In this document: one piece after another, positions 4,648 to 39,638 of the stretch
Layout: each line of letters begins with the position of its first letter
How positions within the stretch are numbered: position 1 is the first letter of the stretch
Translations under genes and position numbers: made by a program
Source: Vibrio pelagius
Lineage (GTDB): Bacteria; Pseudomonadota; Gammaproteobacteria; Enterobacterales; Vibrionaceae
DNA length: 64,000 nucleotides
Assembly (NCBI RefSeq): GCF_024347575.1
Contig: NZ_AP025503.1
Coordinates: 1,302,001 to 1,366,000 of the forward strand
Direction: 5' to 3'
Notes under the pieces: generated by a model
Database searches by the model: none
The model's input: the letters and a program-made list of their open reading frames with translations, nothing else
What the model was told of the DNA's origin: nothing

Positions 4648-5232
4648 ATGGGCAATATAAAATTGGCCATAGTCATAATGCTTAAATCCCTTCTAGCATT
4701 CTGCCTCTATGGTTATTCCATTCATGCTGTTGCCGAATCCGTTGAAATAACGCCAACGGAATCAAATAGGCATGCAGTCGAATTAATTCGCGATAAAGAT
4801 TATAAGTGCGTTCAATGTCATAAAGATTCCAAAGAAACATTACTGGATTCACATGGTATAGATGCACATAATATTGTTGGACGAGAAATTAACTGTACAG
4901 ATTGTCACAGTAATATAAGTCCGGATCACCGAGAAGGGGCACCAGAGGTGATCAAATATCGCTCCGCACAATCGCAAAAAGGAACAAATAAGGTATTTTT
5001 GGATCCTCAAAAGATCTTACAAGCAAATAGTGGATGCACCGATTGTCATAAACCAGAATATTTACAAGAAGATAACTGGACACATGACGTTCACGCGAAA
5101 AACCTTACTTGTTCAAATTGTCACGATGTACACGCCAATAAATCTAAGGTTCTGAGTTTAGATAAGAAACAAACGATCAAACTGTGTGTTGATTGTCACT
5201 CAGACTTTAACCAGAAGAAAGAGGAGGAGTAA
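4648..5232 (+). CDS. nrfB: Pentahaem cytochrome NrfB, electron donor to NrfA
   Basis: The 194-residue protein has a signal peptide (about 1-29) and exactly five CxxCH sites at 54-58, 83-87, 130-134, 155-159 and 180-184. In enteric bacteria NrfB carries electrons from the NrfCD quinol dehydrogenase to NrfA. It is the first gene of a tight operon; the stop lies 3 bases before nrfC. AAGGAAAGG precedes the ATG. The order nrfB-C-D without nrfA in front differs from E. coli. Confidence 0.95.
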   Translation: MGNIKLAIVIMLKSLLAFCLYGYSIHAVAESVEITPTESNRHAVELIRDKDYKCVQCHKDSKETLLDSHGIDAHNIVGREINCTDCHSNISPDHREGAPEVIKYRSAQSQKGTNKVFLDPQKILQANSGCTDCHKPEYLQEDNWTHDVHAKNLTCSNCHDVHANKSKVLSLDKKQTIKLCVDCHSDFNQKKEEE

Positions 5233-5235
5233 TCT

Positions 5236-5922
5236 ATGAGCTGCTCTAGAAGAAACTTTTTAGCTGGTGCCGGTGCAGTGATTGTGACAACCGGGATCGC
5301 TGGCACATCGGTTGTTACTAGCAGAAAAACACTGGCTAGCGTACAGACTGATGGCAATAAGCGCTATGGAATGATCCACGATGAAACCGCATGTATCGGT
5401 TGTACAGCCTGTACAGAAGCGTGTCGGGAAGTGAATAAGGTTCCTGAAGGTGTTTCAAGGTTGGAAATTGTGCGCAGCGAGCCACAAGGTGAATACCCTG
5501 ATGTCGATTATCGCTTTACACGAAACTCCTGCCAACACTGCGACAACGCACCGTGTGTCATGGTGTGTCCAACAGGTGCGGCATATAAAGATGAGAAGAC
5601 TGGCATTGTCGACGTACACAAAGAGAAGTGTGTTGGTTGTGGCTATTGTCTGCTGGCTTGCCCTTATCAAGTACGCTTTTTCAATCCACAAGACGGTTCG
5701 GCCGACAAGTGTAATTTCTGTCGCGATACGAACTTAGCACAAGGAAAACTGCCTGCTTGCGTGGAGTCTTGTCCAACAACAGCACTGATATTCGGCGATC
5801 TTAATGATCCAAACAGTAAGATCAATCAAGTGCTGAAATCCGAAGTGGTTTACAGAGATAAAGTGCACTTAGGCACGCAGCCTAAGCTTTACAAAGTACC
5901 ACATCAGAAAGGGGAGATTTGA
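5236..5922 (+). CDS. nrfC: NrfC, 4Fe-4S ferredoxin-type subunit of the nrf quinol dehydrogenase
   Basis: The 228-residue protein starts with a twin-arginine signal (SRRNFLAGAG). Four cysteine clusters follow: CIGCTACTEAC, CQHCDNAPCVMVCP, CVGCGYCLLACP and CNFC with CVESCP, enough for four 4Fe-4S centres. This layout is that of the NrfC/DmsB/PsrB family. It takes electrons from the membrane partner NrfD and passes them to NrfB. It is exported folded by Tat, as expected for an iron-sulfur protein. Confidence 0.95.
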   Translation: MSCSRRNFLAGAGAVIVTTGIAGTSVVTSRKTLASVQTDGNKRYGMIHDETACIGCTACTEACREVNKVPEGVSRLEIVRSEPQGEYPDVDYRFTRNSCQHCDNAPCVMVCPTGAAYKDEKTGIVDVHKEKCVGCGYCLLACPYQVRFFNPQDGSADKCNFCRDTNLAQGKLPACVESCPTTALIFGDLNDPNSKINQVLKSEVVYRDKVHLGTQPKLYKVPHQKGEI

Positions 5923-5924
5923 TT

Positions 5925-6899
5925 ATGAGTGCATGGGATACAGCTTTCCAATCTGGAACAGTGGTCTGGGATTGGATTATCGCTATCTACTTGTTTTTAG
6001 CAGGTATGTCAGCGGGTGCAGTGATGATCTCTATCTACCTCAAGAGGAAGGTTATCGAAGGTGATGCGTCGAAGAACGGAGTGTTGAAGGCAACGGCTTT
6101 TCTTGCGCCATTTGGCATCATTTCGGGTCTGCTTATTTTGGTGTTTCACCTTACGAAGCCACTCTCTTTCTGGAAGATCATGATCTTCTATAACCCAACA
6201 TCTGTGATGTCGATGGGTGTGATCCTATTCCAAGTCTACATGGCGATCTTGTTTGTATGGATCGGAATTATATTCAGGGATCAGATCACGCTGTTTCTGA
6301 GTGAGCAGAGCTGGCTTAAAGGACGTTTAGATTTTGTTGGGAAACTCATTGGCAAACTGGAACCTCTTGAAAACGCAACAGAAATATTTTTGGCTGTGCT
6401 AGCACTCTTGCTTGCGGCGTATACCGGTTTCCTACTATCAGCGCTAAACACATTCCCAATGTTGAACAACCCAGTATTACCAATACTGTTCTTGTTCTCG
6501 AGCTTGTCCTCAGGTGCAGCAGCCTGCATTTTGTTTGGGGTTCTGGTGTTTAAAGAGTCTCCTCAAGGCCCGAGTATCTCTTGGATCCATGGTTTCGAAC
6601 GTCCAGTGGTGATGTTTGAACTGTTCGTTCTCGTGACCTTCTTCACTGGTTTGATCTTCGCTGGTGGTCAAAGCGAGCAAGCGGCGTGGAATGCTATTGG
6701 TAGTGGGTTCTGGGCGAGTTGGTTCTGGTATGGCGTGATTGGTATCGGTATGGTTTTACCTTTGCTGCTCAATGCTTTTACCCCTAAAGCGGTTCGTCAT
6801 ACTGGAGTCTACATTTTTGCTGTGACTTGCTTAAGTTTGGCGGGCGTTTTAATGCTTCGTACCTTTGTACTTTATGCAGGTCAACTAACTCTAGCGTAA
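5925..6899 (+). CDS. nrfD: NrfD, membrane quinol-oxidising subunit
   Basis: The 324-residue, strongly hydrophobic protein belongs to the NrfD/PsrC family and has about eight membrane helices. It oxidises menaquinol or ubiquinol and hands electrons to NrfC. The ATG at 5925 is chosen because GGGGAG lies 8 bases upstream; a TTG at 5919 would overlap nrfC but has no better ribosome site. The gap to nrfC is 2 bases, so translation is probably coupled. Confidence 0.94.
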   Translation: MSAWDTAFQSGTVVWDWIIAIYLFLAGMSAGAVMISIYLKRKVIEGDASKNGVLKATAFLAPFGIISGLLILVFHLTKPLSFWKIMIFYNPTSVMSMGVILFQVYMAILFVWIGIIFRDQITLFLSEQSWLKGRLDFVGKLIGKLEPLENATEIFLAVLALLLAAYTGFLLSALNTFPMLNNPVLPILFLFSSLSSGAAACILFGVLVFKESPQGPSISWIHGFERPVVMFELFVLVTFFTGLIFAGGQSEQAAWNAIGSGFWASWFWYGVIGIGMVLPLLLNAFTPKAVRHTGVYIFAVTCLSLAGVLMLRTFVLYAGQLTLA

Positions 6900-6923
6900 G
6901 CGTGAGTGATGTTTGTTCTATCC

Positions 6924-6941
6924 GGCCCCTTCGTTGGGGCC
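6924..6941 (+). other. GC-rich hairpin between nrfD and nrfE
   Basis: GGCCCC and GGGGCC form a perfect 6-bp GC stem with a 6-nt loop, 13 bases before the nrfE ATG and 5 bases before its ribosome site. No T tract follows, so it is unlikely to terminate transcription. It may stabilise the upstream mRNA or set the ratio of NrfD to NrfE. Confidence 0.6.
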
Positions 6942-6954
6942 ATATCGAGGTGAT

Positions 6955-8886
6955 ATGCTAGGTTCTTTAGGGCTATTCAATCTCATTGGTGTCGCAGTTC
7001 TCAGCAGTTTGGTGAGTATTGTTTATTTGGCTGGCTGTTATTCTCAGTCAAAGCGCTATTCCGCCTTCATTGGCAGTGCGACTCAAGCGGCCTCTCTTCT
7101 ATCGATTTCTGCTGTGAGTATCCTCGCTTTGGCTTTCTATCAGGACGACTTTTCGATTCTCTACGTCGCTGAGCATTCAAATACCCAACTACCAAGCGCC
7201 TTTAAAATAGCAGCTGTATGGGCAGGACATGAAGGCTCGTTGCTTTTTTGGGTGCTTACCTTAAGCTGCTGGGCAGGGTTTATCGCCAGACGAGATCATT
7301 ATCGAACGGACTATTGTGATGCAGTCCTTTGGGTAATGAATCTACTTATCACGGTGTTCGCTTGGTTTACCTTGATTGCTTCCAATCCATTTGAACTTAA
7401 TTCAGTGTTTGTGACTGAAGGACGCGATCTGAACCCTATGTTGCAGGATGTTGGGCTGATTTTTCATCCGCCATTACTCTACCTTGGCTACGTCGGTTTT
7501 TCGGTTGTTTTGGCGTTTTCAGTTGCGGCCTTGATGGTCAAACCTATTGAATTTGATTGGGTAAGACATTGCCGAACATGGTGCTTAGTGGCTTGGTGCT
7601 TCTTAACCGCGGGTATTGCGCTTGGCTCTTGGTGGGCTTACTACGAGCTGGGTTGGGGCGGCTGGTGGTTCTGGGATCCGGTTGAAAATGCGAGCTTGTT
7701 GCCTTGGCTAACCGCGACGGCGTTACTGCATATTTTGGGCGTTGCCAATGGTAAGAAACAGTTATTGAAGTGGTCTTTCAGTTTAGCTTTTATCACGTTT
7801 AGTCTAAGTATCTTAGGCACTTTCATTGTTCGCTCTGGAGTGCTTACTTCAGTACATGCATTTGCGGTTGATCCAACCAAAGGAATGTCATTACTTTTGA
7901 TCCTAGTTTTGGTATTACTGAGCTCTTTCTCCCTGTTAATCATCAAAGGGGAGCAATTCGAATCGCAAGCGATTGTTAGTTTTAAAAGCAAAGGCTTTAT
8001 GGTGTTGATCGCCGCGCTGATGTTGATACTGGCGATGTCGATTGTTTTGTTTGGTACTTTCTACCCGATGGTTTTTGAATTGTTAGGCCTAGGGACTATT
8101 TCTGTTGGCGCGCCGTATTTCAATCTGTTGATTGCACCATTAGGGCTATTGGCTCTTGTAATGATGGGGATCGCACCACTAATGGTGTGTAAACCACAAT
8201 GCTCGCTTAAGTTAGCGATGTTGTTGGCAGTGGTTTCCATGATAAGTGGCGCGCTTCTATACGTACCACAAGTGTTAGTTAGTGACTTGTACTCAATCTC
8301 ATGGATGGTATTGGTTACTTGGTGCTTAGCGTGTTGGGTCGTTTTTACCCATGGTTATGGCCTGTGGCGCACCCGAAACATGCGTTATCAGCGTAAATTG
8401 TTTGGGATGTCGATAGCACATCTTGGTGTGGCTGCTCTCGCGGTAGGGGCTGGGATGAACAGCTTTCACTCTTTTGAAGCGAGCTACCGTTTGGCGCCGC
8501 ACAGCCAAGTTGAATTTATCGACTGGACGTTGACCTATCAAGAGACAGAGCTTTATGTAGGAAACAACTACACAGCAGAGAGAGGCGTTATTGAGGTCTC
8601 AAACGAAGCGCATCGTTTCGTTATCGCACCCGAACGTCGCCATTACCCTGTACGGGTGATGAATATGAGTGAACCTGCGATGAAGTGGTTCTGGCATGGT
8701 GATATTTACATCACAATGGGAGAGAAGGTCGATCGTCAAGGTTATGCATTTAGAGTGCAGTACAAAGCGTATGTGCGCTGGATTTGGTTGGGGGCATTAC
8801 TCATGATGTTAGGAGGTTTAGTGTTAGTCTTGCAAAGGTATCAGCGACGAATCAAGGAGACGGGTTATGAAATCCAATGTTCGTAA
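6955..8886 (+). CDS. nrfE: NrfE, CcmF-type haem lyase subunit
   Basis: The 643-residue polytopic membrane protein carries the tryptophan-rich haem-handling signature WGGWWFWDPVENASL of the CcmF/NrfE family, with conserved histidines in nearby periplasmic loops (for example WAGHEGS and DVGLIFHPP). It works with NrfF and NrfG to attach haem to the CxxCK site of NrfA. The ATG at 6955 follows GAGGTG closely; an upstream TTG would add 14 residues without a ribosome site. Because a general Ccm system is expected elsewhere in the genome, this copy is assigned to NrfA by its position. Confidence 0.93.
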   Translation: MLGSLGLFNLIGVAVLSSLVSIVYLAGCYSQSKRYSAFIGSATQAASLLSISAVSILALAFYQDDFSILYVAEHSNTQLPSAFKIAAVWAGHEGSLLFWVLTLSCWAGFIARRDHYRTDYCDAVLWVMNLLITVFAWFTLIASNPFELNSVFVTEGRDLNPMLQDVGLIFHPPLLYLGYVGFSVVLAFSVAALMVKPIEFDWVRHCRTWCLVAWCFLTAGIALGSWWAYYELGWGGWWFWDPVENASLLPWLTATALLHILGVANGKKQLLKWSFSLAFITFSLSILGTFIVRSGVLTSVHAFAVDPTKGMSLLLILVLVLLSSFSLLIIKGEQFESQAIVSFKSKGFMVLIAALMLILAMSIVLFGTFYPMVFELLGLGTISVGAPYFNLLIAPLGLLALVMMGIAPLMVCKPQCSLKLAMLLAVVSMISGALLYVPQVLVSDLYSISWMVLVTWCLACWVVFTHGYGLWRTRNMRYQRKLFGMSIAHLGVAALAVGAGMNSFHSFEASYRLAPHSQVEFIDWTLTYQETELYVGNNYTAERGVIEVSNEAHRFVIAPERRHYPVRVMNMSEPAMKWFWHGDIYITMGEKVDRQGYAFRVQYKAYVRWIWLGALLMMLGGLVLVLQRYQRRIKETGYEIQCS

Positions 8887-37213: not shown

Positions 37214-37870
37214 ATGTTACATGCTCACGAAAACACCCTACATATTACCCACCTCAGCAACCATGCCGTTGAAGAGTTGTCACCTTCGTTTGAAAAGCTA
37301 CCAAGCACTGAACATGCAGATGGCAAGTTTCGTCTAAGAAGATACTCGGTAATTCGTTTTTGCGGTGGTAAGGTTGTGGAACAGGACAAGCACAACTTTG
37401 TTCAATCAGAAGATATTAATCACTTTCAAGGCGACGTAGTACGCGAATTTGAACCTGTTGAAGCCAACATTCTACAGAGTGAAGGCATGCAAGAGATGTG
37501 TGAGCTCTTCATCGAGACTAATGGTTTGAAAGACGGTCAAGAGATCGAAATTCATCAAATCCGCATCTCAGCAATTTACGAAGAGACGCAAGTAGCCCCT
37601 GAAGGCGTGCACCAAGATGGTTTTGACCACATCGCACTGATCGGTATGAACCGCCACAACATTGTTGGTGGTGAAATCATGCTTTACCAAGACTCCCACG
37701 AAGCGCCATTCTTTAGAAAAGTACTTGAAGATGGTGAAGTGGCGATGCTCGCAGACAGCAAGCTTTGGCACAATGCTCAACCGATTCGAACGATTGACCA
37801 TGATGAAGTGGGTCATATGGATGTATTCGTACTAACAGCAAAGGATGAGCGTAATGTCCTTCACTCTTAA
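37214..37870 (+). CDS. 2OG-Fe(II) dioxygenase, amino-acid hydroxylase-like (PF10014 type)
   Basis: The 218-residue protein resembles the family of free amino-acid hydroxylases such as Bacillus L-isoleucine 4-hydroxylase. Iron ligands are visible as His133 and Asp135 (GVHQDGFDH) and His186 (LWHNAQPI), with arginine at 192 as a candidate 2-oxoglutarate contact. AAGGAG lies 6 bases before the ATG at 37214; an ATG at 37211 is too close. Its end overlaps the PLP-enzyme gene by 17 bases, so they are co-translated. The substrate is unknown. Confidence 0.82.
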   Translation: MLHAHENTLHITHLSNHAVEELSPSFEKLPSTEHADGKFRLRRYSVIRFCGGKVVEQDKHNFVQSEDINHFQGDVVREFEPVEANILQSEGMQEMCELFIETNGLKDGQEIEIHQIRISAIYEETQVAPEGVHQDGFDHIALIGMNRHNIVGGEIMLYQDSHEAPFFRKVLEDGEVAMLADSKLWHNAQPIRTIDHDEVGHMDVFVLTAKDERNVLHS

Positions 37871-39089
37871 TGAAGTTCGTCAGCAATTTAGCGCGTTAAG
37901 CCAATATCATAATGGCAAGCCTGTTACTTTTTTTGATGGGCCTGGTGGTTCGCAAGTCCCTGAAAATGTCCTAGCCTCAATGACTGAGTATCTTGGCCAT
38001 TTTAATTCAAATCTAGGTGGACACTACTTTTCGAGCCAGAAAACAACAGGGTTAATGCAGCAGGCGAGAGAGTCGGTTCAAGCATTACTGAACGCAGAGT
38101 CTTCTGGCAACATCGTTTTTGGTGCCAACATGACTTCGCTGACGTTCCAATTGAGCCGAGCAATCAGTCGTGATTGGAACGAGGGCGATGAGATCATTGT
38201 TACCGCACTCGATCACTACTCTAACGTATCAAGCTGGCAGCAAGCGGCGGAAGATAAAGGCGTGGCAGTACATCAAGTGCGTGTAGACGAATCAGACTGT
38301 AGCCTAGACATGGCGCATTTTGAATCTTTACTGAGTGATAAGACTCGATTGGTTGCGGTGACTTTTGCTTCCAATACAACAGGCTCAATTGTTGACGTAC
38401 AGAAAGTCGTGGAACTGGCGCACAGTAAAGGTGCGCAGGTTTATGTGGATGCCGTTCACTATGCACCTCACCACTTGATCGATGTACAGAAACTTAATTG
38501 TGATTTTCTAGCGTGTTCTGCATACAAGTTTTTCGGACCTCACGTTGGTATCGCGTATGTCGCTCCTCAGTGGTTACATACATTGAAGCCTTACAAAGTG
38601 GAACCTGCCACCAATGTTGGCCCAGGTCGTTTTGAAACAGGTACTCAGAGTTTTGAAGGGCTAGCAGGTGTGATTGCCGCGGTTGACTACCTTGCACAGT
38701 GTGGTGACCCAGCAGAGAGCCTAAGAACACGTTTGGAGCAGAGTTACAAACTGTACAATCGCCATGAGAGTCAATTAAGTGAGTATTTCTTGCAAAGGTT
38801 GAATGAACTAACTGGAGTCCGCCTCTACGGTAAAACGACTTATGATTCGAACTTGCGTACACCGACGTTCGCAATCACGTTCGATGATCACTCACCAGAG
38901 TCGATAGCTAAAGCGCTGGGCGAGCACAATATCTGTGTTTGGAATGGACACTTTTACGCACTTGGTTTAGTTAAGCAGCTAGGTATTGAAGAGACAGGCG
39001 TTGTTCGAATCGGCTGTATGCACTACAACACAATCGAAGAGATCGATTTACTGTTCAATGTGCTGGAAGGCATTCTTCGTAAAGACTAA
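37854..39089 (+). CDS. Cysteine-desulfurase-like PLP enzyme, VC1184 subfamily
   Basis: The 411-residue protein is a class V aminotransferase-fold enzyme with PLP lysine Lys225 in CSAYKFFGPH and the cofactor-contacting segment VYVDAVHYAPH. Where SufS has its catalytic cysteine (RTGHHCA) this protein has WNGHFYA, with Tyr368 at that place. It is therefore unlikely to be a persulfide-forming desulfurase and may be a lyase or epimerase. AAGGA lies 8 bases before the ATG at 37854; another ATG lies at 37845. Its partner is the overlapping oxygenase gene. Confidence 0.87.
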   Translation: MSFTLNEVRQQFSALSQYHNGKPVTFFDGPGGSQVPENVLASMTEYLGHFNSNLGGHYFSSQKTTGLMQQARESVQALLNAESSGNIVFGANMTSLTFQLSRAISRDWNEGDEIIVTALDHYSNVSSWQQAAEDKGVAVHQVRVDESDCSLDMAHFESLLSDKTRLVAVTFASNTTGSIVDVQKVVELAHSKGAQVYVDAVHYAPHHLIDVQKLNCDFLACSAYKFFGPHVGIAYVAPQWLHTLKPYKVEPATNVGPGRFETGTQSFEGLAGVIAAVDYLAQCGDPAESLRTRLEQSYKLYNRHESQLSEYFLQRLNELTGVRLYGKTTYDSNLRTPTFAITFDDHSPESIAKALGEHNICVWNGHFYALGLVKQLGIEETGVVRIGCMHYNTIEEIDLLFNVLEGILRKD

Positions 39090-39110: not shown

Positions 39111-39149
39111 AAAGAGCGCACTCGAAAATAGTGCGCTCTTTGTTTTTTT
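39111..39149. terminator. Terminator of the oxygenase/PLP pair
   Basis: AAAGAGCGCACT pairs perfectly with AGTGCGCTCTTT around a 7-nt loop, followed by seven Ts. It touches the end of the convergent marR-type gene. Confidence 0.92.
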
Positions 39150-39579
39150 ATCCTTTCGAATTGAGATTTTGAGCCATCGCTTTAGCCACTCGCTCAAAGG
39201 TTGCGAGCTCATCACTATTAATGCCTATCTTCATCTTCTCAAACATCTCGCTATCAACCTCAGTTAGCTGATCAACAATGGCTTTACCGTGCGCGGTGAT
39301 AGCCAAATATTGACTGCGCTTGTCTTCAGGGTTGGGCTCTTTAACGATCAATTCTTGTTTAATTAAGGCACTGAGAAGGCGAGTCACTTGCGCCTTATCT
39401 CGGTCCAAAAAGTTCGCGATATCAACAGCAGTACACTGCGGCTTCTTGGTGATGATCTTTAATACACGCACGTGCATGGGTGCGATATCGAGGTCCAACG
39501 CCTCTATCTTTTCATGCACATTTCTTTTGACGGCATGCACCAATTTAAACAGGCTATCCAGTGACTTACCTTGCGACAT
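39148..39579 (-). CDS. MarR-family transcriptional regulator
   Basis: The 143-residue protein has the MarR winged helix: recognition segment DRDKAQVTRLLSALIKQ and wing segment EPNPEDKRSQYLAITAHG. N- and C-terminal helices would form the dimer. It is convergent with the PLP-enzyme gene. A perfect palindrome lies 43 bases upstream of its start, typical of autoregulation. Its ligand and other targets are unknown; the oxygenase/PLP pair next door is one candidate target. Confidence 0.9.
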   Translation of the reverse strand: MSQGKSLDSLFKLVHAVKRNVHEKIEALDLDIAPMHVRVLKIITKKPQCTAVDIANFLDRDKAQVTRLLSALIKQELIVKEPNPEDKRSQYLAITAHGKAIVDQLTEVDSEMFEKMKIGINSDELATFERVAKAMAQNLNSKG

Positions 39580-39621: not shown

Positions 39622-39638
39622 AGTTGATATTATCAACT
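39622..39638. promoter_or_regulatory. Operator-like palindrome of the marR-type gene
   Basis: AGTTGATA-T-TATCAACT is a perfect 8-1-8 inverted repeat, the size and type bound by MarR dimers, 43-59 bases upstream of the start codon. Confidence 0.7.

Follow-up and report, generated by a model that had tools for sequence, protein, structure and literature searches.

A PF10014 hydroxylase paired in Vibrionaceae with a desulfurase-like PLP enzyme that has lost the desulfurase cysteine

In Vibrionaceae, a gene for a 2OG-Fe(II) dioxygenase of the PF10014 family is paired with a gene for a class-V PLP enzyme of the TIGR01976 family, and this second enzyme has lost the catalytic cysteine of the desulfurases that it resembles. 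Both the pairing and the loss of the cysteine are established here by computation, starting from one such locus in the window (the whole stretch of 64,000 nucleotides that was analysed). The two enzymes very probably work as a pair. For their chemistry we propose, giving the proposal an even chance, that a free L-amino acid would be hydroxylated at the gamma position and subsequently cleaved by a PLP-dependent retro-aldol reaction into L-alanine and a carbonyl compound. Bolder, and held only tentatively, is the view that this would be a widespread route, present in most sampled Vibrionaceae, some cyanobacteria and Pseudoalteromonas, which trims a common L-amino acid to L-alanine and a small carbonyl compound, the change from Cys to Tyr in the PLP family having turned C-S into C-C cleavage by way of the same ketimine. 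A "cysteine desulfurase-like" family of many bacteria, read as iron-sulfur related in the available text of one paper (PMC8694189), probably does something else. If our reading is true, it defines a two-enzyme unit for amino-acid C-C cleavage, provides a function for the TIGR01976 proteins of this clade and for one PF10014 clade, and shows that a desulfurase scaffold can be converted into a C-C lyase, while the reverse reaction would be a tool for making gamma-hydroxy amino acids.

The gene pair and its catalytic residues

The features of the locus, in a genome of 4.96 Mb on three contigs, are collected in Table 1. Possible starts on the plus strand are 37211 or 37214 for the hydroxylase gene and 37845 or 37854 for the PLP gene. 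AAGGAG precedes 37214 and AAAGG sits 9 nt upstream of 37854, as read from the sequence, and nine further loci show an identical 17-base overlap of the two genes; because of this ribosome-site spacing and the recurring overlap, 37214 and 37854 are the likelier starts, and they give precisely the overlap described in the first-pass annotation. The neighbours of the pair are trxB, marR, DUF2797 and a DASS transporter. Beside the window pair we found neither the AMKP-reductase nor the RhtA-type neighbours that are typical of Hil/IDO operons, and saw no adjoining aldehyde-handling gene. A comparison of 30 Vibrionaceae upstream regions yielded some conserved stretches and no nameable operator 5' of the pair.

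Table 1 Features of the paired locus, with positions in the window
Feature	Position	Strand	Size or basis
PF10014 2OG-Fe(II) dioxygenase gene, type I of the paired clade	37214..37870	+	218 aa; ORF
TIGR01976 (VC1184 subfamily) class-V PLP enzyme gene	37854..39089	+	411 aa; without Cys in the SufS catalytic column
Overlap of both reading frames	37854..37870	+	17 bases; read from ORFs
HxD iron ligands His133-Gln-Asp135 of the hydroxylase	37610..37618	+	His and Asp invariant in 46 rows
Distal iron ligand His186 of the hydroxylase	37769..37771	+	invariant in 46 rows
Arg192 of the hydroxylase, possible stand-in Arg	37787..37789	+	alignment of 60 rows
Lys225 of the PLP enzyme, PLP Schiff-base lysine by homology, after Tyr224	38526..38528	+	K 163/163, Y 163/163
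Tyr368 of the PLP enzyme, SufS Cys column	38955..38957	+	alignment, 163 rows
Perfect 12-bp hairpin with T-run, separating the pair from marR	39111..39150	.	read from sequence
MarR-family regulator gene, probably outside the system	39148..39579	-	profile match; beside the pair in the sister genome only
Palindrome AGTTGATATTATCAACT, upstream side of marR	39622..39638	.	exact palindrome

A MarR regulator with its operator had also been placed next door. The gene and the palindrome do exist nearby, but a link to the pair was not supported: marR is convergent with the pair and separated from it by the hairpin, no marR was found in 55 loci (tblastn, 1e-15), and among five close relatives fetched with context only the sister genome G243 has it beside the pair. 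Upstream of the hydroxylase gene there is no copy of the palindrome within 3 mismatches. A role of MarR as regulator of the pair was therefore considered and found to lack support.

The hydroxylase matches PF10014 (2OG-Fe_Oxy_2) in Pfam with 192.6 bits (gathering cut-off 23.1), and its HxD...H iron site, recognised from the start, was confirmed as His133/Asp135/His186, all three being invariant in the 46 aligned rows. An AlphaFold model (mean pLDDT 92.1) is best matched by the folds of HrmJ, BelL, 8w8h, 3pl0 and IDO. An Arg located 16 residues after the distal histidine, which we take to be the 2OG anchor, is conserved in unpaired PF10014 proteins and corresponds to Met202 in the window hydroxylase, where positions 37769-37822 encode this Met together with an Arg ten residues earlier. 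Arg202 is missing from 25 of 60 hydroxylase rows, and since 22 of these 25 have Arg or Lys at 192, use of 2OG by the window enzyme is likely, Arg192 being a residue that may replace the missing one. As a separate observation, Proteus mirabilis shows a 3.5-fold increase in mixed biofilms of a protein from the 2OG-Fe dioxygenase family, which is tabulated alongside proteins of arginine and ornithine metabolism in the available part of PMC10055233.

The PLP enzyme scores 537 bits against the NCBIfam profile TIGR01976 (am_tr_V_VC1184; cut-off 352), a family that NCBI describes as "cysteine desulfurase-like protein" and nothing further. Against the NCBIfam SufS model it reaches 245 bits, below the cut-off of 475, and against the VioD cyclase model only 29 bits. 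The first-pass annotation had claimed, from an alignment by eye, that Lys225 is kept and that Tyr368 replaces the SufS cysteine. Both residues proved invariant in a 55-row alignment of PLP enzymes, and HMMER alignments set SufS RAGHHCA opposite WNGHFYA of the window protein, so that Tyr368 occupies the SufS Cys column, in which the genome's own SufS-like protein has C. Among 163 TIGR01976-like rows from fetched loci (L292, L296, L320 and L325 being second copies), this column is occupied by Tyr (158 rows), His (3) or Phe (1), is a gap in one truncated piece, and holds Cys in none; a cysteine-bearing majority of relatives was therefore not found. The Lys, the stacking His and the PLP Asp are each present in 163/163 rows and the carboxylate Arg in 161/163. 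The residue before the PLP Lys is Tyr in all 163, versus His in the genome's SufS-like protein. In the SufS Gln203 column, paired PLP enzymes have His without exception (50/50), and unpaired ones vary between His (78), Gln (21), Ala (11) and Ser (2). We also looked for a hidden second catalytic cysteine and rejected it, as no Cys column is invariant, the best one (position 224 counted from 37845) reaching 84%.

The AlphaFold model of the PLP enzyme (mean pLDDT 95.5) has the SufS fold, with a TM of about 0.9 in Foldseek; the best 50 matches listed are nearly all SufS or its kin, and Fgm3 is absent from them. A literature search, which covers few subscription papers, returned no published function for a bacterial TIGR01976 protein. 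VC1184 is counted as an iron-sulfur gene among the induced iron-homeostasis genes of V. cholerae in the available text of PMC8694189, a listing of a compound-induced gene that perhaps derives from annotation alone.

Distribution and history of the pair

We searched 197 Vibrionaceae genomes (E 0.001 for the hydroxylase, E 1e-90 for TIGR01976). The hydroxylase is matched in 152 and TIGR01976 in 146, all of the latter above the family cut-off, and the hydroxylase is present in 146/146 genomes with TIGR01976 versus 6/51 without (the 146 comprise 141 in the compared rows plus G239, G291, G349, G360 and G396 in the genome table). Adjacency of the two genes is usual: at 144 of 149 TIGR01976 places in this family, a hydroxylase gene lies directly upstream. 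At 133 places it is a same-strand gene among the hydroxylase matches listed; the other 16 places were all fetched, and 11 of them turned out to have a more distant type II hydroxylase (about 29-33% identical) directly upstream, leaving five without any (L073, L074, L076, L334, L335). Conversely, 123 of the 140 better-scoring (type I) hydroxylase matches listed adjoin a PLP gene, and the 17 non-adjacent ones are confined to three genera (g199, g203, g209). Salinivibrio has the adjacent pair as well.

Seven of these 17 hydroxylase genes were fetched; six are solo (L066-L071) and one, L072 from G244, stands beside a split PLP gene, with the hydroxylase followed in 1172-2966 by a PLP gene in two frames (219 + 163 aa) that is either broken or mis-sequenced. 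The solo type I genes of L066, L067, L068 and L071 adjoin an ORF of 451-470 aa; those beside L066, L067 and L071 resemble one another, showing a signal-like start and, judged by eye, an outer-membrane barrel.

The site between trxB and DUF2797, at which a type I pair lies in seven and five other Vibrionaceae loci of two locus sets, holds a type II pair in G361, which belongs to the same genus as the window genome (L086, 3733-7874). There, the flanking trxB and DUF2797 are 95% and 86% identical to those of the window, and the hydroxylase and PLP enzyme in between are 32% and 48% identical to the window proteins. Joint exchange of both genes is the simplest account of this site. Recurrence in more than 100 genomes rules out chance as the origin of the gene pair, and adjacency, co-occurrence and the joint swap together bear out the earlier claim that the two genes act together.

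Outside Vibrionaceae, loci were ranked against the PLP protein of Gloeothece and the best 80 of at least 586 relatives were kept. In 14 of these best 80 the gene closest to the PLP gene encodes a PF10014 protein (8 cyanobacteria, 5 Pseudoalteromonas and one Methylomicrobium, the last on the opposite strand). The hydroxylase is the largest neighbour cluster, the next ones reaching 6, and no other constant neighbour of the PLP gene emerged. On a plasmid of Gloeothece verrucosa the PF10014 and TIGR01976 genes are 2 bp apart. The other 66 of the best 80 loci, cyanobacteria included, are without a PF10014 gene, and no annotated PF10014 gene stands beside the plasmid copies of the PLP gene that we inspected in Piscirickettsia, Aeromonas, Rhizobium, Shinella, Mesorhizobium and Streptomyces. 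When 47 of the 66 unpaired-PLP genomes were searched, PF10014 was found elsewhere in the genome in 10/11 cyanobacteria versus 2/36 others. As 34 of these 36 non-cyanobacterial genomes lack PF10014, the PLP enzyme can work without a PF10014 enzyme.

Some of the distant unpaired loci have neighbours that offer leads, and no more, to a substrate. On rhizobial plasmids from Mimosa and Leucaena (L180, L181), the TIGR01976 gene is part of a gene cluster with an aldehyde dehydrogenase, an M20 hydrolase, a cupin, an amidohydrolase, an aminotransferase and two amino-acid ABC transporters, which looks like plant amino-acid catabolism. In L194 (G433, 4807-8667) it is flanked by genes for an amidase and an arginase-family protein, neighbours that could suit a guanidino amino acid. 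The surroundings of such loci fit amino-acid breakdown, in rhizobia perhaps via an aldehyde.

Among 136 cyanobacterial genomes spread evenly over the phylum, PF10014 occurs in 18, TIGR01976 in 17 and both in 15 (Fisher p 3e-15, uncorrected for kinship), that is, PF10014 is found in 15/17 genomes with the PLP gene versus 3/119 without it. The genes of all 15 are unlinked, lying on separate contigs or more than 1 Mb apart, and this co-occurrence may be due in part to genome size and kinship, with all 15 genomes measuring 5.1-7.3 Mb. Twelve of the 17 cyanobacterial TIGR01976 matches belong to the paired clade (11/12 genomes have PF10014), and five sit in a deep pair-free branch (4/5 have it). The link is weak among Pseudomonadota that are not Vibrionaceae: of 386 genomes, 23 have TIGR01976 (E 1e-90), 57 have PF10014 and eight have both (p 0.011). 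The two genes are direct neighbours in G755 and G492, are separated by 3.6 kb in G592 and lie apart in the remaining five. A class sample of 232 genomes contains PF10014 in 12, TIGR01976 in 8 and both in four (the window genome, G088, G091 and G195), adjacent in the window genome only. Universal pairing of the two families was rejected on the counts of eight and four. The idea of a linked pair therefore has to be narrowed by the 66 of 80 diverse loci that have no PF10014 gene, and adjacency, the rule in Vibrionaceae, is seen in only 2 of the 23 TIGR01976-bearing Pseudomonadota outside that family.

In a hydroxylase tree of 117 rows (quick method, SH-aLRT supports only, several long branches), a long branch with support 100 divides PF10014 into sides of 40 and 77 rows. 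All 44 paired hydroxylases, the window's included, fall on the 77-row side, together with 24 unlinked cyanobacterial ones, 6 solo ones from Vibrionaceae and 3 others from G088, G592 and G244, whose genomes also have a PLP gene, broken in G244. The 40-row side comes from genomes that lack a TIGR01976 match or have TIGR01976 elsewhere. In the PLP tree (151 rows) paired members occupy two clades, one proteobacterial (34 paired, 6 solo, 1 near) and the other mainly cyanobacterial, with solo lineages intervening. At least 7 changes of pairing state are forced, so that the paired arrangement arose or was lost on several occasions. Of the pairs represented in both trees, none combines a type I with a type II protein.

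A proposed pathway and its alternatives

The gene pair, its conservation, its co-occurrence and its residues were computed directly; for the chemistry, its order and its direction we infer the following scheme. In the first step a free L-amino acid, for which Leu, Ile, Arg, Lys and Glu are possible types, would be hydroxylated at C4 by the PF10014 enzyme, which would depend on Fe(II) and O2 and probably on 2-oxoglutarate. In the second step the PLP enzyme would hold the gamma-hydroxy amino acid via Lys225 and its carboxylate via Arg385, and a ketimine would form as in a cysteine desulfurase. Where the cysteine of a desulfurase would attack a gamma sulfur, the next event here would be removal of the gamma-hydroxyl proton by a general base, with Tyr368 as the leading candidate for that base. 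The ensuing retro-aldol reaction would break the Cbeta-Cgamma bond and leave an alanine enamine, giving L-alanine and an aldehyde or ketone, or 2-aminobutyrate in place of L-alanine if the substrate were beta-methylated. A desulfurase and a lyase of the Fgm3 type can share one ketimine and both end at alanine, and replacement of the nucleophilic Cys by a Tyr that faces the gamma substituent would be a simple way from a desulfurase to a C-C lyase. Fgm3 itself has Phe, not Tyr, at the position of the proposed base. Also counting against the scheme are the narrow margin between Fgm3 and SufS, the SufS-dominated fold matches, the PLP homologues in genomes that lack PF10014, the weak link in other Pseudomonadota, the missing Arg of the window hydroxylase and the lack of an aldehyde-handling gene next to the window pair.

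That the pair hydroxylates an amino acid and then cleaves or rearranges it had been suggested at first sight. Hydroxylation followed by cleavage is still the best reading, drawn from the kinship with Fgm3 and from PF10014 enzymes that act at C4, while the cleavage itself and the substrate stay at the level of inference. With the gene link firm and the cleavage step taken from homology, the hydroxylase could also act first and the PLP enzyme carry out a gamma-elimination, a GntC-like cyclisation or a transamination of the gamma-hydroxy product. GntC indeed takes 4-hydroxyarginine, the substrate of Fgm3, to a cyclisation (PMC10367076, available text), but no PDB sequence matches better than that of Fgm3 and the VioD cyclase model scores poorly, so we regard such other chemistry as rather unlikely.

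Less probable again is a sulfur or selenium role, in which the PLP enzyme would be a Cys-independent C-S lyase, a selenocysteine lyase or a desulfinase, and the hydroxylase would be separate or regulatory. C-S lyases of the 1elq kind work without the desulfurase Cys, and 1elq is a distant match (43 bits) of the window enzyme. The SufS fold, the NCBI name and the appearance of VC1184 as an iron-sulfur gene in the available text of one V. cholerae paper (PMC8694189) agree with such a role; the sub-threshold SufS score, the absence of the cysteine from every relative and the absence of suf/isc genes among the scanned neighbours of the window pair argue against it, and sulfur chemistry offers no evident reason for the link to a single PF10014 clade.

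A class-V desulfurase ketimine suits cleavage beyond Cbeta. This favours bonds other than those required if hydroxylation took place at C3 and the PLP enzyme then acted on a beta-hydroxy amino acid by Calpha-Cbeta cleavage or beta-elimination, a route that we consider improbable: TqaL, a distant match of the hydroxylase, may begin at the C3-H of valine (PMC10764440, available text), but closer relatives of the hydroxylase act at C4. Finally, an ordinary operon-neighbour effect with no common pathway would suit the many solitary TIGR01976 genes and is very improbable in view of the joint presence of the unlinked genes in cyanobacteria and the joint swap at one site.

Comparison with known systems

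Under the preferred reading, hydroxylation followed by retro-aldol cleavage, the closest known counterpart is Fgm3, the best of 78 PDB sequences for the PLP enzyme at 193 bits (299 with a profile), a small lead over SufS at 185 (293 with a profile). Fgm3 cleaves the Cbeta-Cgamma bond of 4-hydroxy-L-arginine into L-alanine and an aldehyde after a P450 has set the 4-hydroxyl group (PMC10967133, available text); the reaction is termed a retro-aldol, and Tyr225 has been proposed as the base from a model (PMC10367076, available text). Like the window enzyme, Fgm3 is a Cys-less class-V-like PLP enzyme that acts after a hydroxylase, and it shares the Tyr before the Lys. It differs in having Phe in the SufS Cys column, where the window enzyme has Tyr368, and Tyr two residues after the Lys, where the window enzyme and 141 of 163 rows have Phe; Tyr225 of Fgm3 may be this residue, the numbering offset being unsure. 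Fgm1 and Fgm3 provide the starter unit of fusaoctaxin B in Fusarium graminearum, Fgm1 being a P450, whereas the partner in the window is a PF10014 enzyme, and Fgm3 belongs to fungal secondary metabolism, whereas the window pair is a bacterial two-gene unit. With SufS and CsdA the window PLP enzyme has the fold, the Lys, the stacking His and the carboxylate Arg in common, but it lacks their catalytic Cys and has Tyr instead of His before the Lys.

On the hydroxylase side, C4 is the position that PF10014 enzymes hydroxylate in free Leu, Ile and Thr (PMC3684760, available text) and from which BelL abstracts hydrogen (PMC10764440, available text). IDO, HilB, HrmJ and BelL, C4-oxidising enzymes of the PF10014/BsmA type, share family or fold and the iron site with the window hydroxylase but are distant in sequence (at most 58 bits), and the window type lacks the Arg 16 residues past the distal His. 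The available parts of PMC3684760 and PMC10764440 mention no PLP partner of the present type for them. UstD, a decarboxylative aldolase, is likewise a desulfurase-like homologue. It produces gamma-hydroxy amino acids by way of an aminoacrylate that acts as nucleophile, which reverses the bond change proposed here (PMC13397446, available text); it thus works in the bond-forming direction, and it is more distant from the window PLP enzyme (87 bits).
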